Source of the DNA: Chthonomonas sp.
GTDB taxonomy: Bacteria; Armatimonadota; Fimbriimonadia; Fimbriimonadales; Fimbriimonadaceae
Direction: 5' to 3'
Length of the DNA stretch: 64,000 bases
Assembly (NCBI GenBank): GCA_016788425.1
Contig: JAEURQ010000002.1
Span: 62,001-126,000 of the forward strand
The notes beneath the pieces were generated by a model, which saw only the letters and a list, made by a program, of their open reading frames with translations, ran no database searches and had not been told where the DNA came from. Shown here in pieces: positions 12,611 to 27,479 of the stretch; position 1 is the stretch's first letter, and each line of letters begins with the position of its first letter. The position numbers were made by a program, and so were the translations under genes.

Positions 12611-13807
12611 TTACGTTGAAAGTTCTTGCGCGACGCGATGATACGCGGCTCGAAAACTCAGGCCCTCGTTCTGAACCAACTCAAAAGCGCGCGTGGCGGC
12701 GTGGATGCTCGGGTCGGTGATCGCTTTCGCCCGCGCGGCATCGAAGGTGATTTTGCCCAGCGCATACGCGGCCACATCAAGCACCAGGTGCGCGCGGTCA
12801 ATCACGCGGAACAAGGGCTCCTTCATGAGTTGATAGTCGCGGTGATAGCCTGAAGTCAGCTTTTCGGTGAGCGTGAGAATCGCGATCAGGTCGGCCGTGG
12901 CCTGCGAGCCGTGCGCCCGAATGAGTTCGAACACGTCGGGGTTGCGCTTCTGCGGCATGATGCTGGAGCCGGTCGAGATCGAATCGTCGAGGCGGATGAT
13001 ACCGAACTCTTGGCTGGCGAAGAGGCATACATCCGCCGCCATTCGCCCGAGGTCGTGGAGAATTTGCGTCAGCGCAAAGGCGAGCGCCGACTCGGCCTTG
13101 CCTCGGCTGGTCTGGCAGGCGGTCACCGGTTGTTGCGGTGCGGCGAATCCGAGTTCCTCGCTCGTACGATCTCGGTCGAGCGACAGCCCGGGCGTGCCAT
13201 AGCCCGCCGCCGAACCGAGCGGGCACAAGCTGGCAAGATCATCCGCCGCCCGTAGAAGGGCCAAGTTGGAGCGCAAGTTACTCGCGAATCCGCCCGCCCA
13301 AAGCGCTACCGAACTCGGCATCGCCTGTTGTAAGTGCGTGTATCCCGGAATCGAAATCTCGCCACTCGTAGCGGTGAGCTTGTCGAACGCCACGGCGACC
13401 TGTTCGAGCTGAGCCGTGAACTGCTCGATTTCGGCGCGCAGGTACAGCCGAATCGCGGTGAGCACCTGGTCGTTGCGACTGCGGCCCAAGTGAACCTTGC
13501 CGCCGAGATCGCCGAGTCGGGCGGTGAGTTGCGCCTCAATCGCGGTGTGGCAATCTTCCTGATCGAGCGAAATCTGCCATCCGCCCGCCTCGTGATCCAG
13601 GCCGACTTGAGCCAAGCCGTCGAGCAGTCCCTGCGCCTCCTCGGACGTCAGCAACCCTTTAGCCGCAAGCATGCGCACGTGCGCCCGGCTGGCGCGGATG
13701 TCGTGCGCCACAAGCCGCTGATCGAGCAGGTAATCGTGGCCGACCGTGAATTCGAGAATCTGTTGGTCGGTGGATTTGCCCTGCCCCCAAAGTCGCGGCG
13801 AACTCAC
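12611..13807 (-). CDS. argH: argininosuccinate lyase
   Basis: Splits argininosuccinate into arginine and fumarate, the last step of arginine synthesis. The fumarase-superfamily signature GSSIMPQKRNPDVFELIRA is present, along with KVHLGRSRNDQV and YTHLQQAMPSS that form the shared active site. The GTG start at 13807 overlaps the argB stop by 4 bp (GTGA). At 398 residues it is shorter than the usual 450-470: it ends just after FRAAYHRVAQELST, so the short C-terminal extension seen in many homologues is missing while the catalytic parts are complete. It is the last gene of the operon. Confidence 0.95.
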   Translation of the reverse strand: MSSPRLWGQGKSTDQQILEFTVGHDYLLDQRLVAHDIRASRAHVRMLAAKGLLTSEEAQGLLDGLAQVGLDHEAGGWQISLDQEDCHTAIEAQLTARLGDLGGKVHLGRSRNDQVLTAIRLYLRAEIEQFTAQLEQVAVAFDKLTATSGEISIPGYTHLQQAMPSSVALWAGGFASNLRSNLALLRAADDLASLCPLGSAAGYGTPGLSLDRDRTSEELGFAAPQQPVTACQTSRGKAESALAFALTQILHDLGRMAADVCLFASQEFGIIRLDDSISTGSSIMPQKRNPDVFELIRAHGSQATADLIAILTLTEKLTSGYHRDYQLMKEPLFRVIDRAHLVLDVAAYALGKITFDAARAKAITDPSIHAATRAFELVQNEGLSFRAAYHRVAQELST

Positions 13808-14676
13808 GGCGTCACCATCGTGCCGCATCCTTCGTTGGTAAATAGCTCGGCCAAGACGCTGTCCGGATACTCGTACGAAATCACGTGCACCCGCTCGACC
13901 CCGCCGGTGAGCGCGGACTTGGCCGCGCCGGACTTGGGCAGCATCCCTGCGTGGACAACGCCCTTGGCTTCCAGGGCCTCGAGCTCGGCAATGGTGATTT
14001 CGCTCATGAGCGTCTCCGGCTTGTCCACGTCGCCCATAATCCCGCGCGGCTTCGTGATGAGAATCAGTTTGCTCGCGCCGAGCGCGACGGCAATCGCCGA
14101 AGCGACATCGTCGGCGTTGATGTTGAGCACCGTCCCGGCGTCGTCGGCAGCCAGCGAACTCACCACGGGCACGAAACCCTGCTCGACCATCATCCGTAGC
14201 GGTGACACATCGAGCGAGGCGATATCGCCAACCTGCCCGAAGTCCACCGTCTCGCCGGTGGGTAGCTTGCGCGGAGGTCGCTGCGTGGCTTTCACAATGC
14301 CGGCGTCAATGCCGCTCACTCCCAACACGTTGAGGTGTTGCGCTCGGCATGCGGCAAGAATTTTGGTGCGAACGGTTCCGTTGAGCGCCATCACCATCGC
14401 TTCCACCATCGCGGGCGAGGTCACCCGCCGCCCGGCTACAAAGTGCGACTCGACGCCGAGTTGCTCGCCGAGAGCCGTGGCTTGCGGGCCGCCGCCGTGG
14501 ACAATCACCAACCCGATTCCGAGTTGGTGCAACACGTTGAGTTGCTCCACCAACTGCCGAAGCCGCGACTCGTCCTCCACGGCCTCGCCACCGACCTTGA
14601 CGACGAGCAGCTGATTGCGAAACAGCCGCAGGTAGGGCACGGCAGTCTTAAGGGAGAGAAGGTTGGCTAGTTCCAT
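13804..14676 (-). CDS. argB: acetylglutamate kinase
   Basis: Phosphorylates N-acylglutamate using ATP. The amino-acid kinase fold is shown by LLVVKVGGEAVED near residue 20, the nucleotide loop VIVHGGGPQATALGEQLG near 50, and LNINADDVASAIAVALGASKLILIT in the second half. 290 residues is normal. ATG 14676 is chosen because it gives the usual N-terminus and overlaps the argF' stop by 10 bp, consistent with coupled translation. The N-terminal extension typical of arginine-feedback-inhibited kinases is short here (about 15 residues), so feedback control cannot be read from the sequence. Whether it acts on the acetyl or succinyl form depends on the argF' specificity. Confidence 0.95.
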   Translation of the reverse strand: MELANLLSLKTAVPYLRLFRNQLLVVKVGGEAVEDESRLRQLVEQLNVLHQLGIGLVIVHGGGPQATALGEQLGVESHFVAGRRVTSPAMVEAMVMALNGTVRTKILAACRAQHLNVLGVSGIDAGIVKATQRPPRKLPTGETVDFGQVGDIASLDVSPLRMMVEQGFVPVVSSLAADDAGTVLNINADDVASAIAVALGASKLILITKPRGIMGDVDKPETLMSEITIAELEALEAKGVVHAGMLPKSGAAKSALTGGVERVHVISYEYPDSVLAELFTNEGCGTMVTP

Positions 14677-15659
14677 GGAGTCAGGTTTTCGAGTTGAGAA
14701 ATGAGGACGCTCTTTTGGGCGTGGAGTCGGTTTTCGGCTTGCTGAATGACCACCGAGCGCGGCCCATCGAGCACTTCGTCGGCGACCTTCACGTTGCGGC
14801 GAACCGGAAGACAGTGCATAAACTTGGCTTGCGGGTCGGCGGTGGCGAACCACGATTCGCGCACGCACCAGTCGCGTAGGTCGGCGCGCTTGGCCAGTTC
14901 GGCTTCGGGTTGGCCGTAGAATTCCGGGCTGCACCACGACTTGCAATAGAGCACCTGGGCGCCGTCCATCGCATCCGCGCGGTCGTGAGACGTGCGGATG
15001 TGCGCTCCGGCTTCGGTCATCATCGCCTCGGGCAGGTCGTAGCCCTCGGGGCATAGCACTGTGATGTCCATGCCTCGTAGTGCGGCCATGTTGAGCGCCG
15101 CGCGCGGAACCGCGTACGGCAGCGGCTTGGGGTGCCAAGCCCAGCTCAGGACGAACTTGCCGTTCGCGGGCACCTGCAACTCGTCCAGCGTCATCCAATC
15201 GGCGAGCGCCTGGCAAGGGTGGTCGCTGGCGGATTCCATGTTGATCACCGGCTTGGGACTCAGCGCGGCCAAGTGCCGCATGCGCTGGTCGGCCAAATCG
15301 GTGGCGATGTAGGTTTGGTCGGCGAACGAGCGGATGCCAAGCACGTCGCAGTAGGCAGCCAGAACCGGGATCGCCTCCCGGACGTGCTCCACGGCCGCTC
15401 CATCCATCACCGCGCCGTCATGAAACTCGAGCGTCCACGAACCCGCGCCGGGCTGGATGACGACGGACGTTCCGCCTTGCTGCCCGACCGCCGCCTGAAA
15501 CGAGGCTAGCGTCCGCAGACTGGGATTCATAAACAGCAGGCCGATCACGCGCTTGTGGAGGCGGTCCCCATGCGGATTCGCTTTGAGTTCGCGCCCGAGG
15601 TCAACCAAGGCTTGAATCTGCTCGCGCGAGAAGTCGCGAAGAGAAAGGAAATGGTTCAC
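14667..15659 (-). CDS. argF': N-acylornithine carbamoyltransferase (AOTCase/SOTCase type)
   Basis: A 330-residue carbamoyltransferase that would carbamoylate N-acetyl- or N-succinylornithine, not free ornithine. Carbamoyl-phosphate motif NPSLRT is present (with LAS after it where RTR/RMS is usual), then SWTLEFHDGAVMDG, HPCQALADWMTLDE, the diagnostic HPKPLPYAVP and HCLPVRRNV, and the C-terminal AENRLHAQKSVL. These long segments match the Xanthomonas/Bacteroides enzymes rather than standard ArgF. The choice of acetyl or succinyl cannot be made from sequence alone: features of both are mixed. The GTG start at 15659 overlaps the argD stop by 4 bp. No deacylase for the resulting N-acylcitrulline is found in the window. 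Confidence 0.88.
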   Translation of the reverse strand: MNHFLSLRDFSREQIQALVDLGRELKANPHGDRLHKRVIGLLFMNPSLRTLASFQAAVGQQGGTSVVIQPGAGSWTLEFHDGAVMDGAAVEHVREAIPVLAAYCDVLGIRSFADQTYIATDLADQRMRHLAALSPKPVINMESASDHPCQALADWMTLDELQVPANGKFVLSWAWHPKPLPYAVPRAALNMAALRGMDITVLCPEGYDLPEAMMTEAGAHIRTSHDRADAMDGAQVLYCKSWCSPEFYGQPEAELAKRADLRDWCVRESWFATADPQAKFMHCLPVRRNVKVADEVLDGPRSVVIQQAENRLHAQKSVLISQLENLTPWN

Positions 15660-16804
15660 GCCAGCACCTCGCGGAGCGCGGTCGTGAACGCCCCGACGTC
15701 GCTCGCCGAGATGATGAGCGGCGGCAGTAATCGGACGATGTTGGGGTTTTTGGCGTCTCCGGTGAGGAATCCGCGCTGTAGCAACTCGGTTCGAACCGGA
15801 GCCGCGGGTGTGTCCAAATGCAACCCAAGGAGCAAGCCACGACCCGTGACCTGTCGAACTCCGGCCTGCAAGCAGCCATGGATGAGTTGCTCGGACCGCT
15901 CTCGAACTTGCCCCAAGAACCCGGGCGCGCTCACGGCGTGGAGTACAGCTTGCATCGCCGCGCACGCGACCGGTCCGCCGCCGAAGGTCGTGCCGAGCAT
16001 GCCGCGCTTGGCCACTGCGGCGACGGGTGCCGAGCACAGCACCGCCGCGACCGGGATGCCGCCGCCGAGGCCCTTGGCAACGGTGAGAATGTCGGGTTGC
16101 ACCGCCGCGTGCTCGACGGCGAACATCGTGCCGCAGCGTCCGACGCCGGTTTGGACTTCGTCGGCGATGAGGAGAATGCCGCGCTCCTTGGCCAGGCGAG
16201 CCGCCGCTTGCAGAAACGCGGTTTCGCATTCCACGGCTCCGGCGACGCCTTGCACCGGCTCAAAAATGACTGCCGCCGTGTCGTCGGTCATGGCTTGGTC
16301 GAGCGCGGCAATGTCGTTGATCGGCACGCGGTCTACGGCAAATGGCGTCTGCGGAAACGCGTACCAACTCGCGTTGTGGTCGGTCACGGCACCCGCGGCC
16401 GCAGTGCGTCCGTGGAATCCGCCCTGCAAACAGGTCACTCGAGTGCGTCCGGTGTGCAAGAACGCCAGGCGCAGGGCGTTTTCGTTCGCTTCGGCACCGC
16501 TGTTAACCAAGAACGCATGGCCGAGCGGTGCCACCGACGCCAAGGTCGCCAAGGCTTCGCGGCGAATCGCGACGTCAACGGCATTGGTTTGGAAAATCAG
16601 TTGCTGCGCTTGGCTTTGGATGGCCGCGGTGAGCGCCGGATGCGCATAACCGAGAGCGGTCACCGCGTGACCGCCGTAAAAGTCAAGGTACACCTTCCCG
16701 TTCGAATCCCACACCTGACAGCCCGCGCCGCGCACAATCTCCACCGGGAGACGGGCGTAGACGTCGAGCTCGGTGGGCGCGTCAGATCCAGCCAGGAACG
16801 GCAT
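15656..16804 (-). CDS. argD: acetylornithine/succinylornithine aminotransferase
   Basis: A class-III PLP aminotransferase of 382 residues making N-acylornithine from the semialdehyde with glutamate as donor. The PLP lysine lies in TVAKGLGGGIP, the phosphate-binding region in NSGAEANENALR, and LLIADEVQTGVGRCGTMF is the family signature. It starts at ATG 16804 inside the end of argC (23-bp overlap) and ends inside the argF' start. The protein is close to the ArgD group used in the Bacteroidetes-type cluster. Related enzymes also act in lysine synthesis; the location argues for arginine. Confidence 0.94.
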   Translation of the reverse strand: MPFLAGSDAPTELDVYARLPVEIVRGAGCQVWDSNGKVYLDFYGGHAVTALGYAHPALTAAIQSQAQQLIFQTNAVDVAIRREALATLASVAPLGHAFLVNSGAEANENALRLAFLHTGRTRVTCLQGGFHGRTAAAGAVTDHNASWYAFPQTPFAVDRVPINDIAALDQAMTDDTAAVIFEPVQGVAGAVECETAFLQAAARLAKERGILLIADEVQTGVGRCGTMFAVEHAAVQPDILTVAKGLGGGIPVAAVLCSAPVAAVAKRGMLGTTFGGGPVACAAMQAVLHAVSAPGFLGQVRERSEQLIHGCLQAGVRQVTGRGLLLGLHLDTPAAPVRTELLQRGFLTGDAKNPNIVRLLPPLIISASDVGAFTTALREVLA

Positions 16805-17831
16805 TGACCAGGCCCTCCTTTTCGTCGAGGCTAAACAGGCGATTCATCCACTGCACCGCGCCGCCCGCCGCGCCCTTCACCAAGTTGTCGATGACCGACG
16901 TGATGACGACCTGGTTGCCGCTGACGGCCACGCCCAAGTGGCAGCGATTGCTGCCCACGATTTCCTTGAGAGTGGGCATTCCCGCCGCGACCTTGACGAA
17001 CGGCGTATGTGCATAAAATGCAGAAATGAGGTCGGTTACAGCGGCGGTGGACATCGGCTTGCGAAGAGTCGCGAAGCACGTCGCATGAATCCCGCGGGCG
17101 AACGGCCCCGAGTGCGGCACAAAGGCGACGGTCAGGTCGGGCGCGTGGGCTTGCAGAAGCCGGCGGATCTCCGGCGTGTGGCGGTGCACCAGCGGTTGAT
17201 ACGCCCACATAGAGCTTTGGCGATGCGGATGGTGAGTGCCCGCGCCAAGTTGACGCCCCGCGCCCGTGCTCCCCGTGATGGCGCTGACCTGAACCTGCGG
17301 CTCAATGAGCTGGTTCGCGACGAGCGGCGCGATTGCGAGTGTTATGCCGGTGGTGAAGCAGCCTGGGTGCGAGATCATCGCTTCCGGCGTTTCCTTGTCC
17401 AGGTCCGGCAACCCGAAATGAAACTGCGGCAAGAGCGTTGGCCCCTCATGCGGCTTGCCATAAATCTGCTCGTACTCGGCGGCATCGCTGGTGCGGAAGT
17501 CCGCCGAGATATCCACGACGCGAGCCGACGTTCCGCCGGCCAAGAGTTCTTCTAGCACGCGCGCCGTTTCGCCATGCGGCATCGCGCTGAACAGGGCCAC
17601 TTGCCGCTTGCCCGCCAATCGCGGCTTGGCGGATTCGAGATCAGTGAAGGTCAGGTCTTCGGCGACACCGGTGAGGTGCGGAAACACTTCGTCGATGCGC
17701 GTGCCGACCTGACTGGTGGATACCACCGATTCGATGCGGAAATAAGGGTGATTGAGCAAGAGGCCAAGGCATTCAGCGGCGACGTAGCCGCTGCCGCCCA
17801 GGACGATGGTGGGAATGGATTTGTTAAGCAT
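16782..17831 (-). CDS. argC: N-acyl-gamma-glutamyl-phosphate reductase
   Basis: Reduces acylglutamyl phosphate to the semialdehyde with NADPH. VLGGSGYVAAECLGLLLNHP is the Rossmann start, and SHPGCFTTGITLAIAPL contains the catalytic Cys. 349 residues is normal. ATG 17831 overlaps the upstream P-loop gene by 8 bp; an in-frame TTG six bases earlier is less likely. A 13-bp palindrome nearly identical to the argR promoter operator lies inside this gene at 17010-17022. Confidence 0.94.
   Translation of the reverse strand: MLNKSIPTIVLGGSGYVAAECLGLLLNHPYFRIESVVSTSQVGTRIDEVFPHLTGVAEDLTFTDLESAKPRLAGKRQVALFSAMPHGETARVLEELLAGGTSARVVDISADFRTSDAAEYEQIYGKPHEGPTLLPQFHFGLPDLDKETPEAMISHPGCFTTGITLAIAPLVANQLIEPQVQVSAITGSTGAGRQLGAGTHHPHRQSSMWAYQPLVHRHTPEIRRLLQAHAPDLTVAFVPHSGPFARGIHATCFATLRKPMSTAAVTDLISAFYAHTPFVKVAAGMPTLKEIVGSNRCHLGVAVSGNQVVITSVIDNLVKGAAGGAVQWMNRLFSLDEKEGLVNAVPGWI
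17010..17022. promoter_or_regulatory. candidate intragenic ArgR box in argC
   Basis: TGCATAAAATGCA differs at one position from TGCATAATATGCA in the argR promoter operator. Both have TGCAT/ATGCA arms with a 3-bp A/T centre. Under random equal base use about 0.04 matches this good are expected in 64 kb, and AT-rich sites are rarer still in this GC-rich segment. Function is inferred. Confidence 0.45.
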
Positions 17832-18876
17832 GTGCAAGGGAAATGGTGTGGAGCAGGTGGTCGGTCAGGTCCTGTGGATCGTGGCGCGCGTTGATGCTGC
17901 GCACCTTGGTTTCGCGTTCGATCGCCGAGACGCCGGCGAGGTTGTCGGTGGCCGGCCCGGTGATGAGCGCGAGCGGAAGCTGGTGCCGATCGCGCACGAG
18001 GTTGGCGCCGCCGAGCGCGCCGACGGGGTCGGCGGCGGCGAGAATGACGCAGCGCAGGTGCGGCGCGATCTCGGGGTCGTCCAGAATCGCGCCGACGCCA
18101 TAGTCGCCGATCAGCCCGTCGCCGAGTTCAAGCACAATCACGTCCGGCCGAGCCTGGGCGAGGCGGTGAATCATCTGCTTGGTGAGCGTTGGCGCGTTGC
18201 TGGCCTGGGTCGTGACAACGCCCAGGTCGGTGAAAATGACCACCTCGCTCGCGCCCGCGTCCTGCATGCCGAGGATGTCGCGGCGCAGACTCACGCCGGT
18301 GGTTTTGGCTGCGCTCACCTTGAGTCCGCGGTGCGTCAGTTGCTGAATCACCGTGAGGCACGCTTCGGTCTTGCCCGAGTTCATGCTCGTGCCGACCACC
18401 GCGATGATCGGTGGCAAGTCGCGCAGTTGCGTTGATGGAAGGCTCAGGTCGGCGGCGATGTTGGCCGGAACCCCACGTCGGCTGTTGAGGTCAGGGAACG
18501 CCATGACGTTCCCGATGACCTCGCACACGTGCGGCTGGCCGACCATCGGCGAATAGCTCGTGCAGGTGCCGAGCACGCCGCCAAGGTTTAGTAGGTTAAT
18601 CTGGTCGCCGGTCTTGAGCGACGTTGGGATGACACCGGCATAGCCCTGAACCGCGTTTCGGTGGCCAAGCGCCCCGGCGATGATATCGCCCGGCTTGATC
18701 GTGGACATGCGGCCCGAAATGAGTTCGAGCGAGTTGTACTGCGACTTGCTCGTGAGCACGCGGACGGCAATGACATCACCCTCGCGGCAAGGGTACTGAT
18801 CGTCCAGCCGAGCCTCGCGTCGCAGGTTACAGTTCAGCGTGACGCTGGCGATTTTGTCGAGCGTGACCGGTCTCAC
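17824..18876 (-). CDS. P-loop NTPase of BioD/MobB/DUF1611 type in arginine operon
   Basis: A 350-residue cytosolic protein of unknown role. Residues about 1-150 form a beta-rich domain (REGDVIAVRVLTSKSQYNSL, GDIIAGALGHR), followed by a SIMIBI-class P-loop, AVVGTSMNSGKTEACL near 159, with downstream acidic motif VIVLELGDGLIGDYGVG. The P-loop resembles those of dethiobiotin synthetase, MobB and the DUF1611 C-terminal domain. It is placed between argG (4-bp overlap) and argC (8-bp overlap), so it is co-translated with arginine enzymes. None of the known arginine steps needs such a protein; regulation, amidation/ligation or transport of an intermediate are all open. I do not assign a function. 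Confidence 0.7.
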   Translation of the reverse strand: MRPVTLDKIASVTLNCNLRREARLDDQYPCREGDVIAVRVLTSKSQYNSLELISGRMSTIKPGDIIAGALGHRNAVQGYAGVIPTSLKTGDQINLLNLGGVLGTCTSYSPMVGQPHVCEVIGNVMAFPDLNSRRGVPANIAADLSLPSTQLRDLPPIIAVVGTSMNSGKTEACLTVIQQLTHRGLKVSAAKTTGVSLRRDILGMQDAGASEVVIFTDLGVVTTQASNAPTLTKQMIHRLAQARPDVIVLELGDGLIGDYGVGAILDDPEIAPHLRCVILAAADPVGALGGANLVRDRHQLPLALITGPATDNLAGVSAIERETKVRSINARHDPQDLTDHLLHTISLAHA

Positions 18877-20066
18877 GAATCGCCTCCGGCGCGGCCATGG
18901 AGGATTCCGGCTAGGCCATAGAGGCGGCTAAAGCCCTTGGCGTCATCGGCGGTCCATTCGCCCATGGCCTCGCCGTACACGGCGCGCGAGGCGGCGTGCA
19001 AGGAGTGCGGCGAAGAAACTCCGGTGACGAACATGTTGCCGGGGCGAAGTTCGAATTTGACCTCACCGGTCACGCGCTGCTGCGAACTCAGGAAAAGCGC
19101 CTCGATTTCGCGGGCCGCGGGTTCGGTGAAAAGGCCCTCGTGGACCCACTCGCCGTAGCTCGCCGCCACGGTGTCCTTGAGCGCGATCTGGCGCTTCGTG
19201 AGGGTCAGCTTTTCGAGCTCGCGGTGGGCCGGCAGGATGACGCTCGCCGCCGGGGCTTCGAAGGCGACACGGCCCTTGATACCCAGGATGGTTTCGCCAA
19301 GATGGATGCCGCGGCCCAGGCCATAAGCCGCGGCCAACTGGTCAACGGCCAGAATAATCTGCACCGGCGAGCCGGTTACGCCGTCGAGCGCGACCGGTTC
19401 GCCTTGGCGAAACTCCAGCGTGTGAGTACTCGGTCGCAGGGCTTGTTCGAACGCGCCTTGGGTGCGCTGCCAAGCCTCGTTGGGGATGCTGAGCTCGGTG
19501 CCGGTGGTTTCCGCCCCGCCAATCGTCACACCCCACAGCCCCGAATTGATGCTGTAAGTCGCCTTCTGGCCGGGGAAGTCGAGCCCCTCGCTGGCCAGCA
19601 AAGCGAGTTGCTCGTCGCGTCGTGGCGCTTGGTCGCGAACTGGAGCCACGATTTCGACGCCCGGCGCCACCGTGCGCAGGGCGACTTCGAATCGGACTTG
19701 GTCGTTTCCGGCGGCGGTGCACCCGTGGGCAACCGCACCGGCTCCGATTTGGGCGGCGACTTTCGCGGTTTCGCGAGCCTGCAGCGCGCGCTCGGCTCCC
19801 ACGCACAGCGGATAGAGTCCGCCGCGCAAGACGTTGCCGGCGATGAGCCAGCGAACGACCTCACGATAGAACAATTCGGTTGCGGGCACGACGATGTGCT
19901 CCGCCGCGCCGAGCTTCGCGCTGCGTTCGGCGATCTGGCCGAGTTCGTCCGGCGAGAATCCGCCAACGTCAACGGTTACGGTCGTGATTTCGTACCCGGC
20001 TTGGCGCAGAACCGGGATGCACCAACAGGTGTCGAGCCCGCCCGAGAAAGCAAGCGCGAGCTTCAT
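18873..20066 (-). CDS. argG: argininosuccinate synthase (Bacteroidetes/Xanthomonas-like type)
   Basis: Joins citrulline and aspartate using ATP. The PP-loop is LALAFSGGLDTCWCIPVL (Cys where Ser is usual after SGGLDT). GGLYPLCVGAERALQA and HGCTAAGNDQVRFEV correspond to the divergent ArgG branch found with N-acylornithine carbamoyltransferases, not to the common YPLGTSLARP form. 397 residues. ATG 20066 overlaps the argR stop by 4 bp and its stop overlaps the P-loop gene by 4 bp. The enzyme branch supports the N-acylated route. Confidence 0.92.
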   Translation of the reverse strand: MKLALAFSGGLDTCWCIPVLRQAGYEITTVTVDVGGFSPDELGQIAERSAKLGAAEHIVVPATELFYREVVRWLIAGNVLRGGLYPLCVGAERALQARETAKVAAQIGAGAVAHGCTAAGNDQVRFEVALRTVAPGVEIVAPVRDQAPRRDEQLALLASEGLDFPGQKATYSINSGLWGVTIGGAETTGTELSIPNEAWQRTQGAFEQALRPSTHTLEFRQGEPVALDGVTGSPVQIILAVDQLAAAYGLGRGIHLGETILGIKGRVAFEAPAASVILPAHRELEKLTLTKRQIALKDTVAASYGEWVHEGLFTEPAAREIEALFLSSQQRVTGEVKFELRPGNMFVTGVSSPHSLHAASRAVYGEAMGEWTADDAKGFSRLYGLAGILHGRAGGDS

Positions 20067-20479
20067 GCCGTCGCTCCCAGCGCGCTCATCAGCGAGGCTT
20101 GGTCGGCGGCGGTGGCGGTGGCCACAAAGATTGTGTCGTCGCCCGCGACGGTGCCAACGATCTCCGAGCGACCTAAGTTGTCCAGTCTCACCGCGACTAA
20201 CTGCGCCGCGCCGATCGCCGTGCGCAGTACGAGCAGGTTCGGCCCGGCGGGTTTGAGCGACACCAGACCCAGTTCCTGGCTCTGCGGCGGCGTCGGCAGC
20301 ATGTAGCGGCCACGTTGCTTTTGTACGCCCAGGTCGGCCAGGTCCCGGCTGACGCTGCTTTGCGTGACCGCGTAGCCCGCCTGGGTCAGGCTGGTCTGCA
20401 GGTCCTCTTGCGAGCGCACCTCCTGCGCCGTGAGCAGGGAGCGGATGAGCTGCAGCCGTGCGTCCTTTGTCTGTGACAT
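20063..20479 (-). CDS. argR: arginine repressor
   Basis: ArgR/AhrC binds arginine as a hexamer and represses arginine genes. The N-terminal winged helix includes VTQSSVSRDLADLGVQK, and the C-terminal core ends with GTVAGDDTIFVATATAADQASLM containing the GDDT arginine-binding turn. From ATG 20479 it has 138 residues. A consensus promoter is placed so that transcription would begin at this ATG; the ATG at 20485 falls within six bases of the -10 box and is therefore unlikely. First gene of the operon, so autoregulation is expected. Confidence 0.95.
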   Translation of the reverse strand: MSQTKDARLQLIRSLLTAQEVRSQEDLQTSLTQAGYAVTQSSVSRDLADLGVQKQRGRYMLPTPPQSQELGLVSLKPAGPNLLVLRTAIGAAQLVAVRLDNLGRSEIVGTVAGDDTIFVATATAADQASLMSALGATA

Positions 20480-20480
20480 G

Positions 20481-20504
20481 TGCATATTATGTGCATAATA
20501 TGCA
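20481..20504. promoter_or_regulatory. ArgR operator (inverted repeat)
   Basis: Perfect 10-bp arms TGCATATTAT and ATAATATGCA flank GTGC. The right part also reads as the 13-mer palindrome TGCATAATATGCA (20492-20504). It covers the argR -10 box and spacer, so bound repressor would block the argR promoter. The motif resembles known ARG boxes (TGAATAATxATTCA-like and CATGCAT-like forms). Confidence 0.75.
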
Positions 20505-21003: not shown

Positions 21004-22209
21004 ATGAAAGCAACTCGAATATTTTCCCTCGTAATTTTAACAGGGTCTTTCCATGCCTTGGCATTCGGCCAAGACTTGGGTGACCTGGTGCAAGTCGCGC
21101 TCAGCAAGAGCCAGCGCATCGCGGCTCAACGCCACTTGGTGCGGGAGGCCGAACTGGCGGCCGGATCGCTGCGATCCCCGCTCAACCCCGAACTCGAGAT
21201 CGCCCCGGGGGTGGGGTTCACCAACTCTGGCTTCGCGTTGGGGCAAAGCTTCGATGTCTCGGGCCAGCGTCGCGCGCTTGCCCAGATGGCCTTGACGTCC
21301 GTGTCGCTGGCCCAGGCCGAGGTCCGCAAAACGGAGCTTGAGGTCGGCGCGCAGGTGGTCGAGCAGTTGATGCGACACGCCGCGGCTCGCCGCGAGGCGG
21401 CCCTGGCTCAGACTGCGCTGAACCTCGCACGGACCACGCGCGACGCCGTGAAAAAGCGGCAGGAGATCGGCGAAGTCCCAGCGATTCAAACCAGTCGCGC
21501 CGAGCTTCAGGTGATCCGCGCCGAGCAGACCCTTGCCATCGCGCAGGCGCAGGTCGCCGATCAGAAACTCGCGCTGGGATTTTGGTTCGACTCCTCGATC
21601 ACCGATAGCCTGGAAGACGAACTGACCTTCGACAACACGGTTGACGGCAAGCCCAATCGGCCCGAGTCGGCGATCGCCATGGCTCACGTCGGGGTTGCGC
21701 TAGCCGACGAGCAGGTCGCCCGACGGGAGTCGGCGCCCAAGCTTTTCGTCGGTATCGCCGCCGACACGTGGAGTCTGGATCGACGACCTTTTCGTAGCGA
21801 GAACATTGGCCTGCAAGCGCGGTTGACGATGCAGCCGTTTGACCGTCGCACCAACCGCAAGCAGGTGCAATCCAAGGAGGCGGCCACCCGCGCCGCCCGG
21901 GCCGAGCTTGTCGAAATCGACCGCCGCATTGCCTTGGAGGTGGCGCGGGCGCAAGCCGAACTGGCCGCCGCCCAAGCCGTACGGGAGCGATACGCGAGCG
22001 GGGTTGTGCCCCGAGCCGCCGAACTGGTGCGAGCCATGCAAGACGGCTACACGCAGGGATTCGTGACCCTTCTGGAACTCCTTGAGGCGCAGAACACGCT
22101 CGCCGAAACCGCAACCGAAGCCTCGGCGGCGACGCTCCGATTCCAGTTGGCCCAACTCAAACTCATGACCGCCTTGGGGCAAGTCCCGGGCACGGAGGTG
22201 ACGCGATGA
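21004..22209 (+). CDS. TolC/CzcC-like outer-membrane efflux protein
   Basis: A 401-residue outer-membrane factor that forms the exit duct of an RND efflux system. It has a signal peptide (TRIFSLVILTGSFHALAFG) and two repeats of long coiled-coil helices with the OEP pattern, for example LVQVALSKSQRIAAQRHLVREAEL and the second-repeat LVRAMQDGYTQGFVTLLELLEAQNTLAET. It ends by overlapping the adaptor gene by 4 bp. The 72-bp gap upstream shows no clear promoter, so it is likely transcribed from 20535. Confidence 0.88.
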   Translation: MKATRIFSLVILTGSFHALAFGQDLGDLVQVALSKSQRIAAQRHLVREAELAAGSLRSPLNPELEIAPGVGFTNSGFALGQSFDVSGQRRALAQMALTSVSLAQAEVRKTELEVGAQVVEQLMRHAAARREAALAQTALNLARTTRDAVKKRQEIGEVPAIQTSRAELQVIRAEQTLAIAQAQVADQKLALGFWFDSSITDSLEDELTFDNTVDGKPNRPESAIAMAHVGVALADEQVARRESAPKLFVGIAADTWSLDRRPFRSENIGLQARLTMQPFDRRTNRKQVQSKEAATRAARAELVEIDRRIALEVARAQAELAAAQAVRERYASGVVPRAAELVRAMQDGYTQGFVTLLELLEAQNTLAETATEASAATLRFQLAQLKLMTALGQVPGTEVTR

Positions 22210-24371
22210 AACGAACCTTACTGTTGACATCGCTGCTTCTTGCGGCGACCATGGCTCGAGCGGGCGAGGAAGATCACGCGCATGGGCCGGACGGTCGGCA
22301 CCTTCCGCCCACCCAGACCACCTCGAATCCGGAATCGCAACTGCTGAGTCACCACGACCTTCGGATTGAGGGCGCGGACGGCAAGTCCATGCTCGGCTGC
22401 ACCGTGGAGAGCAAGATTTGGCGCAAGGACAAGCCGAGCGAAATCGTGCACACCGAGGCGAACGCCTATGAGGCGGAGAACGAGGTTTACGGCTCGCACA
22501 TGACTTATCGCGCGCCCGGCGAGTACGTGATTTCGGAGGGCATTACATTCCCCGATGGCCGTAAGACGACGGTCGAGTTTCCGATTATTGTTGCGGCGGA
22601 ACAAGCCGCTGCCGCCGAAGACGAGCATGCTCACGGGCCGAACTATCTGGCCATTGTCGGCGGAATTCTCGGCGTTGGCGCGGCTCTAGTGATCGCTTTC
22701 CGCATGGGTAAACGGAGCGGACGCGGCCCGATGGTGGCCATGCTTTTGCTCAGCGGCGTGCTGGTCACTGGGCCACGCGCGCAGGAATCCGAGGCGGCGC
22801 ATGCGCACGGACCCGATGGTCGGCACATCATTCCGATGGCCAGCAAGGGTTCGGTCGGGCCGAAACTGCCTGCTTACGTGGGCCAAGCGGGTTCGGAATC
22901 CCAAACGAAAACTGTTGAGGGCGTGAAGTTCACCCTCACGATAGAGAACGAAGAAACTGTCCCCGACCCCGACGTCGTGCAACTTTCCGAGCAGGAAGTC
23001 CGGCTCACCGGACTGAAAACTGCCCAGGTGCAGGTGTCGCCTGCCGCGGGCGGCATGTACGCCACCGGGCGAGTGCAGGCCAACCCGAACGGGCGGGTGA
23101 TTGTAAACTCGCGAACCGGCGGTCGTGTGCTGACGCTTAGCGCGTTGCCGGGCACCGAGGTGCGAAAGGGCCAGGTTCTGGCGGTGCTTGAAAGCACCGA
23201 ATTGGCCGATGCGCAAGCCTCCATGAGTGCGGCAATTGCCGACCAGCGGCAAGTGGCGGCCGCCGTGCAAAGCGCTCGCTCGGCGATTGCCGCGGCCGAG
23301 AGTCGCGTAGCGACCGCGGAGCGAACCCTCGCTCGGCAACGACAGTTTGCAAAGGCGGGAGAATTTAGTTCGCCGACGCTTGAAGCAGCCAAAGCCGAAG
23401 CATCTCGGGTCGCCGCAGAACTCAGTTCGGCGCGGACTCGATTGATGGCCACTGAGGCGACGGTGGGGCGGTTGGCGCGTGGCGTGGCGAGCGGTGTTGT
23501 GGCTCAGCGCGAACTTGATGCCGCGCGCGCCGAAGTCGCGTTGGCCAATACCGCGCTCGGAAATGCCCATCGCCAGGATGCCGTGGCGAAGGCGGCGCTC
23601 GCCCGCGAACAAGGGATCGCCAAGCAAGGCTTGCGCGACGCGAAGGAAGTTGAACAAGCCGCGGCGGACCTGAGCCAAGCTCGGGCCGAACTCACGAGTC
23701 GGCGCAGTGACCTGACTCGGGCCATCGCCGATCAGGCTCGCGCGGCAACCGCGCTGCGGATTAGCGGCGATCAGGTTCGCCTGCTTGGCGGGCGACCCGG
23801 CGGCGGCCATCGCATTAGCATCACGGCGCCCATTTCGGGCGAAGTGGAATCGCGGTCGGTCAGCCTCGGCGAGACCATCGCGAGCGGGCAGCAACTCTTT
23901 GAGCTGCTCAATGCGAGCGTGGTTTGGGTGATCTGCGACATCTACGAAAAAGACATTCGCCGGGTGCAGATCGGTCAGCATGTGGACGTCGTGGCCGATG
24001 CGCTGCCAGGGCTGACTTTCCCCGGCGAGATCGCGTTTGTCCACAACGAGGTCGAGGAGAAAACTCGCACCACCAAGGTACGCGTGGCGATCAACAATCC
24101 CGGCGAGCGGCTGAAGCAAAACATGTTCGTGCGAGCCCAAATCGGCATCGAATCGGGCCGCCAAGTGACGGTTCCCACGAGCGCCGTTCAGATCGTTAAG
24201 GGCATGTCCATGGTCTTTCTCAAGCAGGGTGAAGGCGTGTTCCGCAAACACATCGTGCAGGTGCAGAGCACCCTCGGCGACAAGACGATTTTGCGGACGG
24301 AGCTACCGCCCGCGAGCGTTGTGGTCACCGACGGGTCTTACCAGTTGGCGGCGATTGCCGGGAGTCGGTAA
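22206..24371 (+). CDS. RND periplasmic adaptor fused to N-terminal FixH/YtkA-like domain
   Basis: A 721-residue protein, much longer than ordinary CzcB/CusB adaptors (about 400-500). A first signal peptide (RTLLLTSLLLAATMARA) is followed by HAHGPDGRH (24-32), an Ig-like FixH/YtkA-type domain (about 40-130), HAHGP (141-145) and a membrane helix at 147-165. A second hydrophobic segment beginning at Met176 looks like another signal peptide and leads to a second HAHGPDGRH (199-207). From about 245 on it is a standard adaptor: beta-barrel and lipoyl halves, a long alpha hairpin (about 335-510), and the membrane-proximal barrel TAPISGEVESRSVSLGE. Two once-separate genes appear joined. The His motifs suggest metal capture. 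Confidence 0.85.
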   Translation: MKRTLLLTSLLLAATMARAGEEDHAHGPDGRHLPPTQTTSNPESQLLSHHDLRIEGADGKSMLGCTVESKIWRKDKPSEIVHTEANAYEAENEVYGSHMTYRAPGEYVISEGITFPDGRKTTVEFPIIVAAEQAAAAEDEHAHGPNYLAIVGGILGVGAALVIAFRMGKRSGRGPMVAMLLLSGVLVTGPRAQESEAAHAHGPDGRHIIPMASKGSVGPKLPAYVGQAGSESQTKTVEGVKFTLTIENEETVPDPDVVQLSEQEVRLTGLKTAQVQVSPAAGGMYATGRVQANPNGRVIVNSRTGGRVLTLSALPGTEVRKGQVLAVLESTELADAQASMSAAIADQRQVAAAVQSARSAIAAAESRVATAERTLARQRQFAKAGEFSSPTLEAAKAEASRVAAELSSARTRLMATEATVGRLARGVASGVVAQRELDAARAEVALANTALGNAHRQDAVAKAALAREQGIAKQGLRDAKEVEQAAADLSQARAELTSRRSDLTRAIADQARAATALRISGDQVRLLGGRPGGGHRISITAPISGEVESRSVSLGETIASGQQLFELLNASVVWVICDIYEKDIRRVQIGQHVDVVADALPGLTFPGEIAFVHNEVEEKTRTTKVRVAINNPGERLKQNMFVRAQIGIESGRQVTVPTSAVQIVKGMSMVFLKQGEGVFRKHIVQVQSTLGDKTILRTELPPASVVVTDGSYQLAAIAGSR

Positions 24372-27300
24372 ATGTTGAACCGACTGATTGAATTGAGCCT
24401 GCGCCAGCGGGTTCTGGTGGTGGTACTCGCCATCATGGTGTGCCTTGGCGGGGTCGCCACGGTCATGCGCATGGACGTGGACGTGTTGCCCGACCTTAAC
24501 CGGCCGGTGGTCACCGTGATGACCGAGGCGCACGGCATGGCGCCGGAGGAAACCGAGGCGCTCGTTTCGTTCCCCATCGAAACCATGATGAACGGCGCGA
24601 CCGGCGTACAGCGGGTCCGCTCGGCGAGCAGCGCCGGGTTCAGCATCGTGTTTGTCGAGTTCGATTGGGGGATGGACATCTTCCGGGCGCGGCAGATTGT
24701 TAGCGAAAAGCTGCAACTCGCGCAGGCGCGGTTGCCGCAAGGATCGGTGGCGTCGCTGGCTCCAATCAGCTCGATCATGGGCGAGATCATGCTGGTCTCG
24801 CTCTCGAGCAAATCGGGCAAAACCACACCGCTCGACCTACGCGCGCAAGCCGACTTTGTGGTGCGTCCGCGGCTGCTCGCGGTGCCCGGAGTTTCGCAGG
24901 TGGTGCCGATCGGCGGCGGAACAAAGCAGTATCAAATCCTCACCACGCCCGAGCGTCTTAAGAGCGCCGATGTGACCGTGGACGAACTGGTTGAGGCAGC
25001 GAAAAACAGCAATGTCAACGCCGGGGCCGGCTTCGTTCAGGAGGCTCATCAAGAGTCGGTGGTTCGGATTTTGGGTCGAGTGCGCGATCTGGACGACATC
25101 GCGCAGACGCCGATCAAGTCGGTGGATGGCGTGCCGGTTACGATCGGCCAAGTCGCCGATTTGCAGTTTGCCAAGGGGCAGCCTCGCGGCGACGCCAGCG
25201 TAGATGGGCGGGCCGCGGTGATCCTTTCGGTGCAGAAGCAGCCCGACGCCAACACGCTTGCGCTGACCAAGAACCTGGATCGCGCGCTAGCCGAGGTGGG
25301 CGCCACCTTGCCCGACGACATCGAGCTGAACAAGAACCTGTTCCGGCAGGAGACGTTCATTAACACCGCGATCCGCAACGTGGTTCGGGCGCTGGTTGAG
25401 GCTGGACTCATCGTGCTGGTGATCGTGCTCGGGTTCTTGCTGAACGTCCGTGCCACGCTCATCTCGCTCGTGAGCATCCCGGTCTCGTTCATCGTCACCA
25501 TGTTGCTGCTCGACCGGTTCGGCATCAGCGTCAACACGATGACGCTGGGCGGGCTCGCCATCGCCATCGGCTTGGTCGTGGATGACAGCATCGTGGACGT
25601 GGAGAACGTGGTGCGCCGCTTGCGGTTGAACGCTCTCTCGGCGGAGCCGCAGTCGCCGCTGCGCGTGATTTATCATGCCAGCGCCGAGGTGCGAAACAGC
25701 ATCGTCTTTGCGACGCTGATCATCGTGCTCGTGTTCGTGCCGCTGCTCTCGCTAGAAGGCATGGAAGGGCGCGTGTTCTTGCCGCTCGGACTCGCCTTTA
25801 TCTTCTCGATGATGGCCTCGCTGTTGGTCTCGCTGACCCTCACGCCGGCACTTTGTGCGTTGCTACTGCGGCATTCGCGTCCGGCCGCCGAGGAGCACGA
25901 ACCCAAGCTGGTCGCGTGGCTCAAAAAGCTCAACGCCCCGTTGGTTCGTTGGTCGATCCGACATCCTTGGACAGTGATGGGCGCGACGGCGGTGATCTCG
26001 ATTGGCGCGCTCGCCTGCCTGCCGCTGCTGGGGCGGGAATTCTTGCCCAAGTTCAACGAGGGTTCGCTCGCGATCGCCGCTACGTTACCGCCCGGCACGA
26101 GTCTCGGCGAGAGCAACCGGATTGCGACGATCATTGAGAAAGCGGCCCTCACGGTGCCGGAGGTGACGCACGTTGGACGCCGCACAGGGCGGGCAGAACT
26201 CGACGAACACGCGGAAGGTGTGAACCACTCCGAGCTGGATATCGGGCTCCGAAACTCCAAACGAGGAAAGGACGCGGCGGCGAAGGAACTCCGCGAAAAG
26301 CTGGGCGAGATTCCCGGCGTGTATATGGCATTTGGTCAACCGATTAGTCACCGACTCGACCACCTTTCCTCGGGCGTGAGGGCAGCCTTGGCGGTCAAAG
26401 TCTTCGGGCCGGATCTCGATGAATTGCGCCGCTTGGCCAAGGACGTTGAAGCCACGATGCGCACGATTCCGGGCGTGGTGGATCTGCAGATTGAGCCGCA
26501 AGTGGAGGTGCCGCAGTACAGCATCAGCATTGATCGCGCGGCGGCGGGTCGCTACGGCGTCACGCCGGAGCACTTGGCGGAGACGCTCGAAGTGGCGATC
26601 GGCGGGCACGTGGTTTCGCAGGTGTTGCAGGGTCAGCTGACCTTTGATCTCGCCGTGTGGTTTGCGCCTGAGGCTCGGCGCGACCTCGCGGCTATGCAGT
26701 CCATGCTCATCAACACACCCGCCGGCGTGGCAATTCCGCTTTCGCAAGTGGCGACGGTGCGTCGCGAAACTGGCCCCAACACGATCAATCGTGAGAACGC
26801 CTCGCGACGAATTGTGGTGCAGGCGAATGTGGAGGGGCGCGACCTCGACGGCGTCGTGCGAGAACTCCAATCGAACCTCGGGACCAAGCAAAAGGCGTGG
26901 CCGCGCGGTTACTACGTCGAGTTCGGCGGGCAGTTCCAATCGCAGCAGAGCGCGATGGCCCGGATCCTTCTGCTCGGCGGATTCACCGTCATCGGGGTGT
27001 TCTTGCTACTGCAACTGGCGCTGAAATCGTGGCGGCTTGCGCTCCAGGTGATGGTCAACCTGCCCATGGCGATGGTCGGTGGGGTGGTCGCGCTGCTTCT
27101 CACCGGCGGAATCCTCTCGGTGGCGTCCATGGTCGGGTTCATCACCTTGTTCGGCATCGTCACGCGCAACGGCATCATGATGCTGGCGCACTATATGCAC
27201 CTGATGCGCGAGGAAGGCGAGGAGTTCAGCGAGGCCATGATTGTCCGGGGCACCCAGGAGCGGCTTGCGCCGGTGCTCATGACCGCGCTCGCCGCCGCGC

Positions 27301-27479
27301 TCGGGTTGCTGCCGCTGGCCATTAGTTTTGGTCAGCCCGGCAAGGAGTTGCTGCAGCCAATCGCGGTCGTGATTTTGGGCGGCTTGCTGTTCAGCACGTT
27401 CCTGGATCAGGTCGTGATGCCGGCGATGTTTTGGGTGTTCGGACGCCACGAGCGGCCGACCGAACCGGACTTCGTCTAA
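24372..27479 (+). CDS. heavy-metal RND efflux pump (CzcA/CusA family)
   Basis: A 1035-residue inner-membrane proton-driven pump. The HME-RND pattern is clear: MLNRLIELSLRQRVLVVVLA at TM1, the periplasmic porter region RMDVDVLPDLNRP, and TM4 with acidic residues in IGLVVDDSIVDVENVVRR used in proton relay. GREFLPKFNEGSLAI begins the second half and TM10-12 close it. It starts 1 bp after the adaptor stop. Metal specificity (Co/Zn/Cd or Cu/Ag) cannot be fixed; a CusA-type methionine pair is not obvious. Its stop overlaps the convergent PadR gene by 4 bp. Confidence 0.93.
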   Translation: MLNRLIELSLRQRVLVVVLAIMVCLGGVATVMRMDVDVLPDLNRPVVTVMTEAHGMAPEETEALVSFPIETMMNGATGVQRVRSASSAGFSIVFVEFDWGMDIFRARQIVSEKLQLAQARLPQGSVASLAPISSIMGEIMLVSLSSKSGKTTPLDLRAQADFVVRPRLLAVPGVSQVVPIGGGTKQYQILTTPERLKSADVTVDELVEAAKNSNVNAGAGFVQEAHQESVVRILGRVRDLDDIAQTPIKSVDGVPVTIGQVADLQFAKGQPRGDASVDGRAAVILSVQKQPDANTLALTKNLDRALAEVGATLPDDIELNKNLFRQETFINTAIRNVVRALVEAGLIVLVIVLGFLLNVRATLISLVSIPVSFIVTMLLLDRFGISVNTMTLGGLAIAIGLVVDDSIVDVENVVRRLRLNALSAEPQSPLRVIYHASAEVRNSIVFATLIIVLVFVPLLSLEGMEGRVFLPLGLAFIFSMMASLLVSLTLTPALCALLLRHSRPAAEEHEPKLVAWLKKLNAPLVRWSIRHPWTVMGATAVISIGALACLPLLGREFLPKFNEGSLAIAATLPPGTSLGESNRIATIIEKAALTVPEVTHVGRRTGRAELDEHAEGVNHSELDIGLRNSKRGKDAAAKELREKLGEIPGVYMAFGQPISHRLDHLSSGVRAALAVKVFGPDLDELRRLAKDVEATMRTIPGVVDLQIEPQVEVPQYSISIDRAAAGRYGVTPEHLAETLEVAIGGHVVSQVLQGQLTFDLAVWFAPEARRDLAAMQSMLINTPAGVAIPLSQVATVRRETGPNTINRENASRRIVVQANVEGRDLDGVVRELQSNLGTKQKAWPRGYYVEFGGQFQSQQSAMARILLLGGFTVIGVFLLLQLALKSWRLALQVMVNLPMAMVGGVVALLLTGGILSVASMVGFITLFGIVTRNGIMMLAHYMHLMREEGEEFSEAMIVRGTQERLAPVLMTALAAALGLLPLAISFGQPGKELLQPIAVVILGGLLFSTFLDQVVMPAMFWVFGRHERPTEPDFV

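Follow-up and report, generated by a model that had tools for sequence, protein, structure and literature searches.

Gene X, in the arginine operon of Chthonomonas sp. (Armatimonadota, Fimbriimonadaceae), probably encodes a new N-acyl-L-glutamate synthase that does not belong to the GNAT family, a candidate found by genome context and exclusion. It lies in a stretch of 64,000 nucleotides (assembly GCA_016788425.1, contig JAEURQ010000002.1, positions 62,001 to 126,000), referred to here as the window, and is present as a single copy in the genome from which the window comes (G000; 2.67 Mb in 4 contigs, 99.9% complete). By placing an acyl group on the alpha-amino nitrogen of L-glutamate, X would catalyze the first committed step in making arginine, and the acylated glutamate would pass to ArgB, so that the chain handled by ArgB, ArgC, and ArgD is blocked. 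X would stand in for ArgA or ArgJ without being homologous to them, and would be made up of a P-loop domain of the BioD/CTP-synthase/DUF1611 type and a beta-rich N-terminal domain (N-domain) of its own. Several unrelated enzymes are already known to serve this step (PMC4490483). A literature search that left most subscription journals outside its reach found no publication naming X or a P-loop arginine synthase.

The genes in the window form a minus-strand cluster, argR-argG-X-argC-argD-argF'-argB-argH, in which most genes overlap slightly. X and argG share 4 bases, GTGA, which hold the start of X and the stop of argG, and X and argC share 8 bases if argC starts at ATG 17831 or 14 bases if it starts at TTG 17837. 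Pfam identified the neighbors of X as argininosuccinate synthase on one side and semialdehyde dehydrogenase on the other, followed by a class-III aminotransferase, a carbamoyltransferase, an amino acid kinase, and a lyase. A deacylase of the ArgE/DapE-type M20 family was encoded between argB and argH in 8 of 80 X loci from other genomes (L070-L076 and L112) and in further members of the family; the four that were scanned were ArgE/DapE-type M20 enzymes that scored under every equivalog cut-off. In such operons, where the other steps are covered too, N-acylation of glutamate is the only step left without a gene.

These operons also bear on the proposal that X deacylates N-acylcitrulline late in the pathway and that the first step is catalyzed elsewhere. 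The window genome fits this proposal in that no ArgE ortholog turned up, either in the window or in the genome's nine M20 matches; the nearest of its M20 proteins to the operon deacylases was DapE-like (L062, 28-30%), in a comparison from which the L070 deacylase, a query without a match, was left out. Since X stands alongside an ArgE-like M20 gene in the operons just described, and since no deacylase is known to have a P-loop fold, this role is extremely improbable.

A pattern search of the genome collection matched at least 594 stretches, of which at least 510 encode a relative, some perhaps from sister clades, and the best 80 loci were analyzed. The next arg gene downstream of X was argC in all 80, and the gene upstream was argG in 73 and argR in 5, with nothing detected in 2. 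By their titles, the records came from Armatimonadetes, Gammaproteobacteria (many of them Woeseiaceae and Steroidobacteraceae), Acidobacteria, Planctomycetota, Myxococcales, and Gemmatimonadetes. One record titled as a Methanoregulaceae archaeon (L075) had match coordinates identical to those of G011, which belongs to the same bacterial family as the window, and its archaeal title therefore looks wrong. Within the window's family X adjoined argC in all 34 genomes that had X, with 2-124 bases between the ends of the matches. The X-argC pair was constant while the surrounding order shifted, as in the order D-F-B-E-G-X-C in L166. X was disrupted by a frameshift in G033 (C1:1407912-1408954) and by one internal TGA in G181 (C6:834961-836007), which may be decay or sequencing error.

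X and ArgJ, a common producer of N-acetylglutamate, appeared to replace each other. In the 85 genomes of the window's family there were 34 with X, 32 with ArgJ, and none with both, where about 13 with both would be expected by chance. argC was found in 68 of the 85 genomes, and 66 of these had either X or ArgJ; the 17 genomes without argC had neither. The two remaining argC genomes (G023 and G205) had, next to argC, a LysX-like gene and one for a LysW-like carrier with EDWGE at its end. LysX exceeded its cut-off in G023 and in its sister genome G031, and was recognized in G205 by sequence likeness only; with a genome just 77% complete, G205 could have X in a missing part. The replacement could be seen even within a single genus (g19), where 4 of the 20 genomes contained X, 15 ArgJ, one neither, and none both. 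Over the whole family there were 16 genera with X and 9 with ArgJ, with 1 in common, a view which is fairer than the genome counts because genome-level Fisher statistics ignore shared ancestry. Among 11 family genomes with ArgJ that were read, 10 had its gene as the one immediately following argC. A smaller sample of 61 relatives gave the same picture (17 with X, including the sister-clade protein of G052, 26 with ArgJ, and none with both); a wider count, 39 of 291 genomes, includes two sister-clade proteins (G052 and G169) and two matches to the P-loop only (G242 and G320).

LysW/LysX also blocks the amino group of glutamate, by yet another unrelated route (PMC4490483). It would share that function with X and was present in both argC genomes that lack X and ArgJ, but it consists of an ATP-grasp ligase and a carrier protein, and X has neither. 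Clusters of LysW, LysX, an argC-like gene, a kinase, and an aminotransferase were also seen in family members (L172, L173, and L184); the one in L184 is probably for lysine because homoaconitase-like genes adjoin it.

No classical ArgA and no domain fusion that could supply the first step was found with X. ArgJ was absent from all 50 X records tested, which were drawn from the 80 loci. The ArgA model did not exceed its cut-off in any of 80 genomes searched, where its matches were the kinase part, that is ArgB, or weak GNAT pieces. This sample comprised 67 X handles, which include at least two duplicates (G061=G026 and G066=G011) and so stand for no more than 65 different genomes, with a sister-clade protein in one (G052), together with 13 genomes without X and ArgJ. 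Only one of these 13 (G023) had any match to the ArgA model, as would be expected if the other 12 have lost the pathway. There was no C-terminal acetyltransferase on ArgB or ArgH, as 69 ArgB proteins had at most 37 extra residues and 63 ArgH proteins at most 13. In the window genome there were 14 GNAT matches in 12 frames, several of them unassigned; the only one over a named cut-off was RimI and none reached an N-acetylglutamate synthase (NAGS) cut-off, in a sequence search that did not extend to the Bacteroides-type synthase BT3761/Cabys_1732.

These GNAT frames could harbor the real synthase at an unlinked site, in which case X might be an accessory or regulatory P-loop nucleoside triphosphatase, such as a helper like MobB or HypB or a sensor of arginine or energy. 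The P-loop half of X does resemble MobB, HypB, and the signal recognition particle (SRP) GTPases, and Bacteroides uses BT3761 for the first step (PMC7311316). We consider this explanation quite unlikely, since ArgB and ArgH carry no fused acetyltransferase, X is the only gene in the operon without an assigned step, and X tracks argC in the family studied unless ArgJ or LysW is present.

More distant homologs of X were not associated with arginine genes. A sample of 369 gammaproteobacterial genomes yielded 30 matches with two distinct ranges of score. The 9 matches at 402-478 bits were all linked to arg genes, whereas the 21 at 162-225 bits had no such gene in the stretch read. In a tree of 68 rows, a branch (support 95/84; with long-branch warnings) separated the 45 arg-linked rows from the other rows, and none of the 23 sister loci had an arg gene in the stretch read. 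Members of the nearer sister clade (L207-L209) were encoded directly beside M20 hydrolases identified by Pfam, with a flavin-reductase-like gene in L208 and L209. Members of the farther sister clade (L189-L206, L164, and L165), about 27-36% identical and without arg genes, were often followed by an ABC exporter of about 570 residues, which was identified as ABC by Pfam for L189 only. An adjacent M20 hydrolase would be expected if the family makes N-acyl amino compounds, and L207-L209 may possibly represent another N-acyl amino acid system.

Random scatter of the homologs was thus true only of the divergent sister clades, and the arg-type proteins were arg-linked in every locus read. The initial annotation had proposed to check whether homologs keep the arg neighborhood; the arg-type proteins did so (80 of 80 loci and 34 of 34 family genomes) but the sister clades did not. 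Its suggestion that X may carry out a missing step is strengthened by this neighborhood, which was kept in every arg-type locus read, by the genome-by-genome replacement of ArgJ, and by an operon that lacks the first step. Its statement that no known step of arginine synthesis needs such a protein was too strong, as the first step has no other assigned gene. It had also taken translation coupling to imply stoichiometric expression with the enzymes, which gene overlap by itself does not demonstrate.

X was modeled as a beta-rich N-domain followed by an alpha/beta P-loop C-domain (mean predicted local distance difference test score, pLDDT, 90.9). The closest structural matches to the P-loop domain were CTP synthase (Z 17.5), BioD (Z 16.1), HypB (Z 15.9), the DUF1611 structures 2g0t (Z 17.4) and 2obn (Z 16.3), and DgcN (7xrj, Z 15.2). 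As these top matches, from CTP synthase to DgcN, span at most 2.3 Z units and CTP synthase and BioD score about as well as the DUF1611 proteins, the DUF1611-like fold of X is nonspecific. Whole-model Foldseek searches were dominated by the P-loop half, and the N-domain was therefore modeled and searched alone (pLDDT 89.8). Foldseek found no match for it under E 0.001 (best 0.89) and the best VIA Z was 3.0, a lack of structural matches to a predicted model that does not prove a new fold.

The similarity to CTP synthase could suggest that X links arginine to a nucleotide, carbamoyl phosphate, or proline pathway and has no step in arginine synthesis. The strict co-occurrence with argC and the exclusion from ArgJ genomes make such a role very improbable, and this analysis yielded no positive evidence for the earlier ideas that X regulates flux or connects to another pathway.

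X passed the MobB gathering score (PF03205, 29.7 vs 26.6 bits) over residues 157-250 only and missed the MobB equivalog cut-off (TIGR00176, 29.4 vs 76.2 bits). The match must be considered marginal because no MobB match was listed for the homolog in L147 (Peristeroidobacter agariperforans) and the sister-clade protein in L189 reached only 23.8 bits. The DUF1611 gathering score in Pfam was missed by X (19.6 vs 25 bits, on the P-loop half) and likewise by the proteins of L147 (19.4), L208 (21.0), and L189 (20.2). No NCBIfam model names X, no GNAT family was among its Pfam and NCBIfam matches to E=1, there was no ArgJ domain match in Pfam, and PDB sequence searches with X alone or with its alignment gave nothing convincing. 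The initial annotation had described a 350-residue protein between argG and argC, with overlaps on both sides, a P-loop, GTSMNSGKT (residues 162-170), of the BioD/MobB/DUF1611 kind, and a beta-rich N-domain. The frame, the motif, the overlaps, and the predicted beta-rich domain, which found no PDB match when its structure prediction was carried out as proposed there, all agree with that description; the likeness to BioD, MobB, and DUF1611 held at the level of fold but not for the DUF1611 gathering score and the MobB equivalog cut-off.

X aligned with 14 homologs of 23-71% identity with 36 invariant columns, and the frame was therefore taken to be a real gene. The N-domain alone had 32 invariant columns across 22 sequences; being so strongly conserved, it probably helps to form the active site. 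In the 68 sequences, the residues common to all clades included E51, R56, D64, and R73 of the N-domain, the P-loop residues G162, M165, G168, K169, and T170, and further K191, T193, G194, D200, D206, E250, D253, G254, and D283. Residues found mainly in the arg-type proteins (K44, Y47, N48, Y79, N97, R199, Y259, D311, and N329) are, from the alignment, candidates for a role in substrate choice.

DgcN, a DUF1611 protein, provides a precedent for glutamate acylation by a P-loop protein. It has been deposited as an N-acetyltransferase (title of structure 7xrj) and is described as working in D-glutamate use (PMC12363236 and PMC10845958). Its reaction presumably uses acetyl-CoA. The P-loop domains of X and the DUF1611 proteins (7xrj, 2obn, and 2g0t) share the same fold (Z 15.2-17.4), but X has GTSMNSGKT, KxTG, and ExGDG where DUF1611 has GTDCxxGK, RATGQTG, and EGQGS. 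X itself was ruled out as DgcN by these motifs, by its sub-gathering DUF1611 score, and by a separate DgcA-like/DUF1611 pair in the window genome. In this pair (L186:2620-4681; contig C3, ~366,620-368,681), a DgcA-like gene of the enolase superfamily overlaps a DgcN-like DUF1611 gene, apart from X. The survey in PMC12363236 lists Woeseiales as important dgcN carriers. X in the arginine operons of Woeseiaceae could be confused with dgcN in such surveys, although true DUF1611 genes are present there too.

The place of X in the operon, its conservation, the replacement pattern, the predicted fold of the P-loop half, and the argF' residues are direct results; which reaction X catalyzes, with which donor and acyl group, and what each residue does, we infer. 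The donor is probably an acyl-CoA, and, by analogy with DgcN, the P-loop may grip the nucleotide part of the CoA. A variant of the proposed synthase activity, which is possible but unlikely, is that X ligates free succinate or acetate in an ATP-dependent manner, as BioD and CTP synthase do. In favor of this are the high structural scores of BioD and CTP synthase and the conservation, in every clade, of K191, D206, E250, and the lysine of the P-loop. X shares the P-loop fold and its Walker lysine with BioD, CTP synthase, and MobB; a further conserved lysine of X and an acidic residue we take to parallel those of BioD and CTP synthase. DgcN, with a similar P-loop, is deposited as an N-acetyltransferase and presumably uses acetyl-CoA, which speaks for the other donor. 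Of acyl-CoA and the free acid, acyl-CoA is somewhat favored. X differs from BioD, CTP synthase, and MobB in its N-domain, and its operon contains no biotin, CTP, or molybdenum genes.

The carbamoyltransferase encoded in the operon, argF', was examined for the acyl group. A family review (PMC4581275) assigns Glu92, Asn185, and Lys302 to N-acetylornithine enzymes, with A/S/P/V/Q, P, and V/I/E in their place in N-succinylornithine enzymes; the GapMind study (PMC7311316) links S, P, A, or V as the first of these residues to a preference for the succinyl substrate. In 70 argF' sequences, those of the window and 69 loci, position 92 was A in 63, V in 6, and Q in 1, but never E, and position 185 was P in 69 and A in 1, but never N. 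Position 302 was more variable, with V in 38, A in 21, K in 8, E in 1, and a gap in 2, and it fit the succinyl list in 39 of the 70. As the residues are mostly of the N-succinylornithine type, the product is probably N-succinylglutamate. If X is the synthase, these residues suggest that the acyl group is rather likely succinyl, and otherwise acetyl.

A succinyl-blocked pathway has been established by genetics in Bacteroidetes, with BT3761 for the first step (PMC7311316). The operons with X resemble that system in most argF' residues, in the set of arg genes, and in an expected DapE/ArgE-like deacylase, but X had no acetyltransferase family match and would replace BT3761. X would also carry out the same step as ArgJ and ArgA, and X and ArgJ interchange within one bacterial family, but X has no sequence relation to them and no GNAT or ArgJ match. 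It is possible, though on balance doubtful, that X defines a family of two-domain P-loop N-succinyl-L-glutamate synthases with a new N-terminal beta fold and a succinyl-blocked pathway in Gammaproteobacteria, Armatimonadota, and other phyla, and that both sister clades N-acylate other amino compounds.

Several observations weigh against X as an N-acylglutamate synthase or against a succinyl product. The exclusion of X and ArgJ could reflect any part specific to an acyl-citrulline pathway, and an unlinked GNAT, for example a divergent short NAGS beyond the reach of the family models, could be the synthase, with 12 GNAT frames in the window genome. In the predicted model, the P-loop half is about equally near BioD, CTP synthase, HypB, and the SRP GTPases, and the fold alone is no predictor of acyl transfer. 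A profile alignment of X with DUF1611 (hhalign) covered 103 columns from the P-loop onward only, with a probability of 27.6% and the N-domain unmatched. Deacylation is unassigned in the window genome. The A at position 302 of 21 of the 70 argF' sequences is outside the published succinyl list (PMC4581275), and the window argF' is mixed, with V, P, and K at the three positions. Overall, the window enzyme is also more similar to the acetyl enzyme from Xanthomonas (244-250 bits) than to the Bacteroides succinyl enzyme (191-192 bits). The origin of these comparison entries in the two genera is presumed, in part after PMC4581275.

The positions of the cluster genes and of the motifs in X are listed in Table 1. 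Divergent from argR was an apparent metal/RND efflux operon (21004-27479 in the window), named by eye, with an outer membrane factor, a long membrane fusion protein, and a CusA-like pump.

Table 1. Genes of the arginine cluster and sequence features of X, in window coordinates.
Feature	Position	Strand	Basis or remark
X, proposed N-acyl-L-glutamate synthase	17824..18876	-	350 aa, GTG start; open frame, context, conservation
N-domain of X, residues 1-150, beta-rich, without confident PDB fold match	18427..18876	-	predicted structure
P-loop of X, GTSMNSGKT, residues 162-170	18367..18393	-	alignment; G162, M165, G168, K169, T170 in all family clades
K-x-T-G motif of X, residues 191-194	18295..18306	-	alignment; kept in all clades
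E-x-x-D-G motif of X, residues 250-254	18115..18129	-	alignment; E250, D253, G254 in all clades
argR, arginine repressor, first gene of the cluster	20063..20485	-	Pfam
argG, argininosuccinate synthase	18873..20066	-	Pfam
argC, N-acylglutamyl-phosphate reductase	16782..17837	-	start TTG 17837 or ATG 17831
argD, N-acylornithine aminotransferase	15656..16804	-	family match
argF', N-acylornithine carbamoyltransferase	14667..15659	-	V, P, K at three specificity positions; 2 of 3 as in N-succinylornithine enzymes
argB, N-acylglutamate kinase, without acetyltransferase domain	13804..14676	-	family match
argH, argininosuccinate lyase, without fused acetyltransferase domain	12611..13828	-	Pfam scan

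If X is the synthase, it would be a new enzyme for an old, essential pathway, with a P-loop fold not previously known among the enzymes of its first step. Pathway tools without the X family could misread many species as arginine auxotrophs (one genome collection has at least 510 relatives, some perhaps of the sister clades), and X would close this gap. The succinyl-blocked route would also reach beyond the Bacteroidetes, where it has been described.

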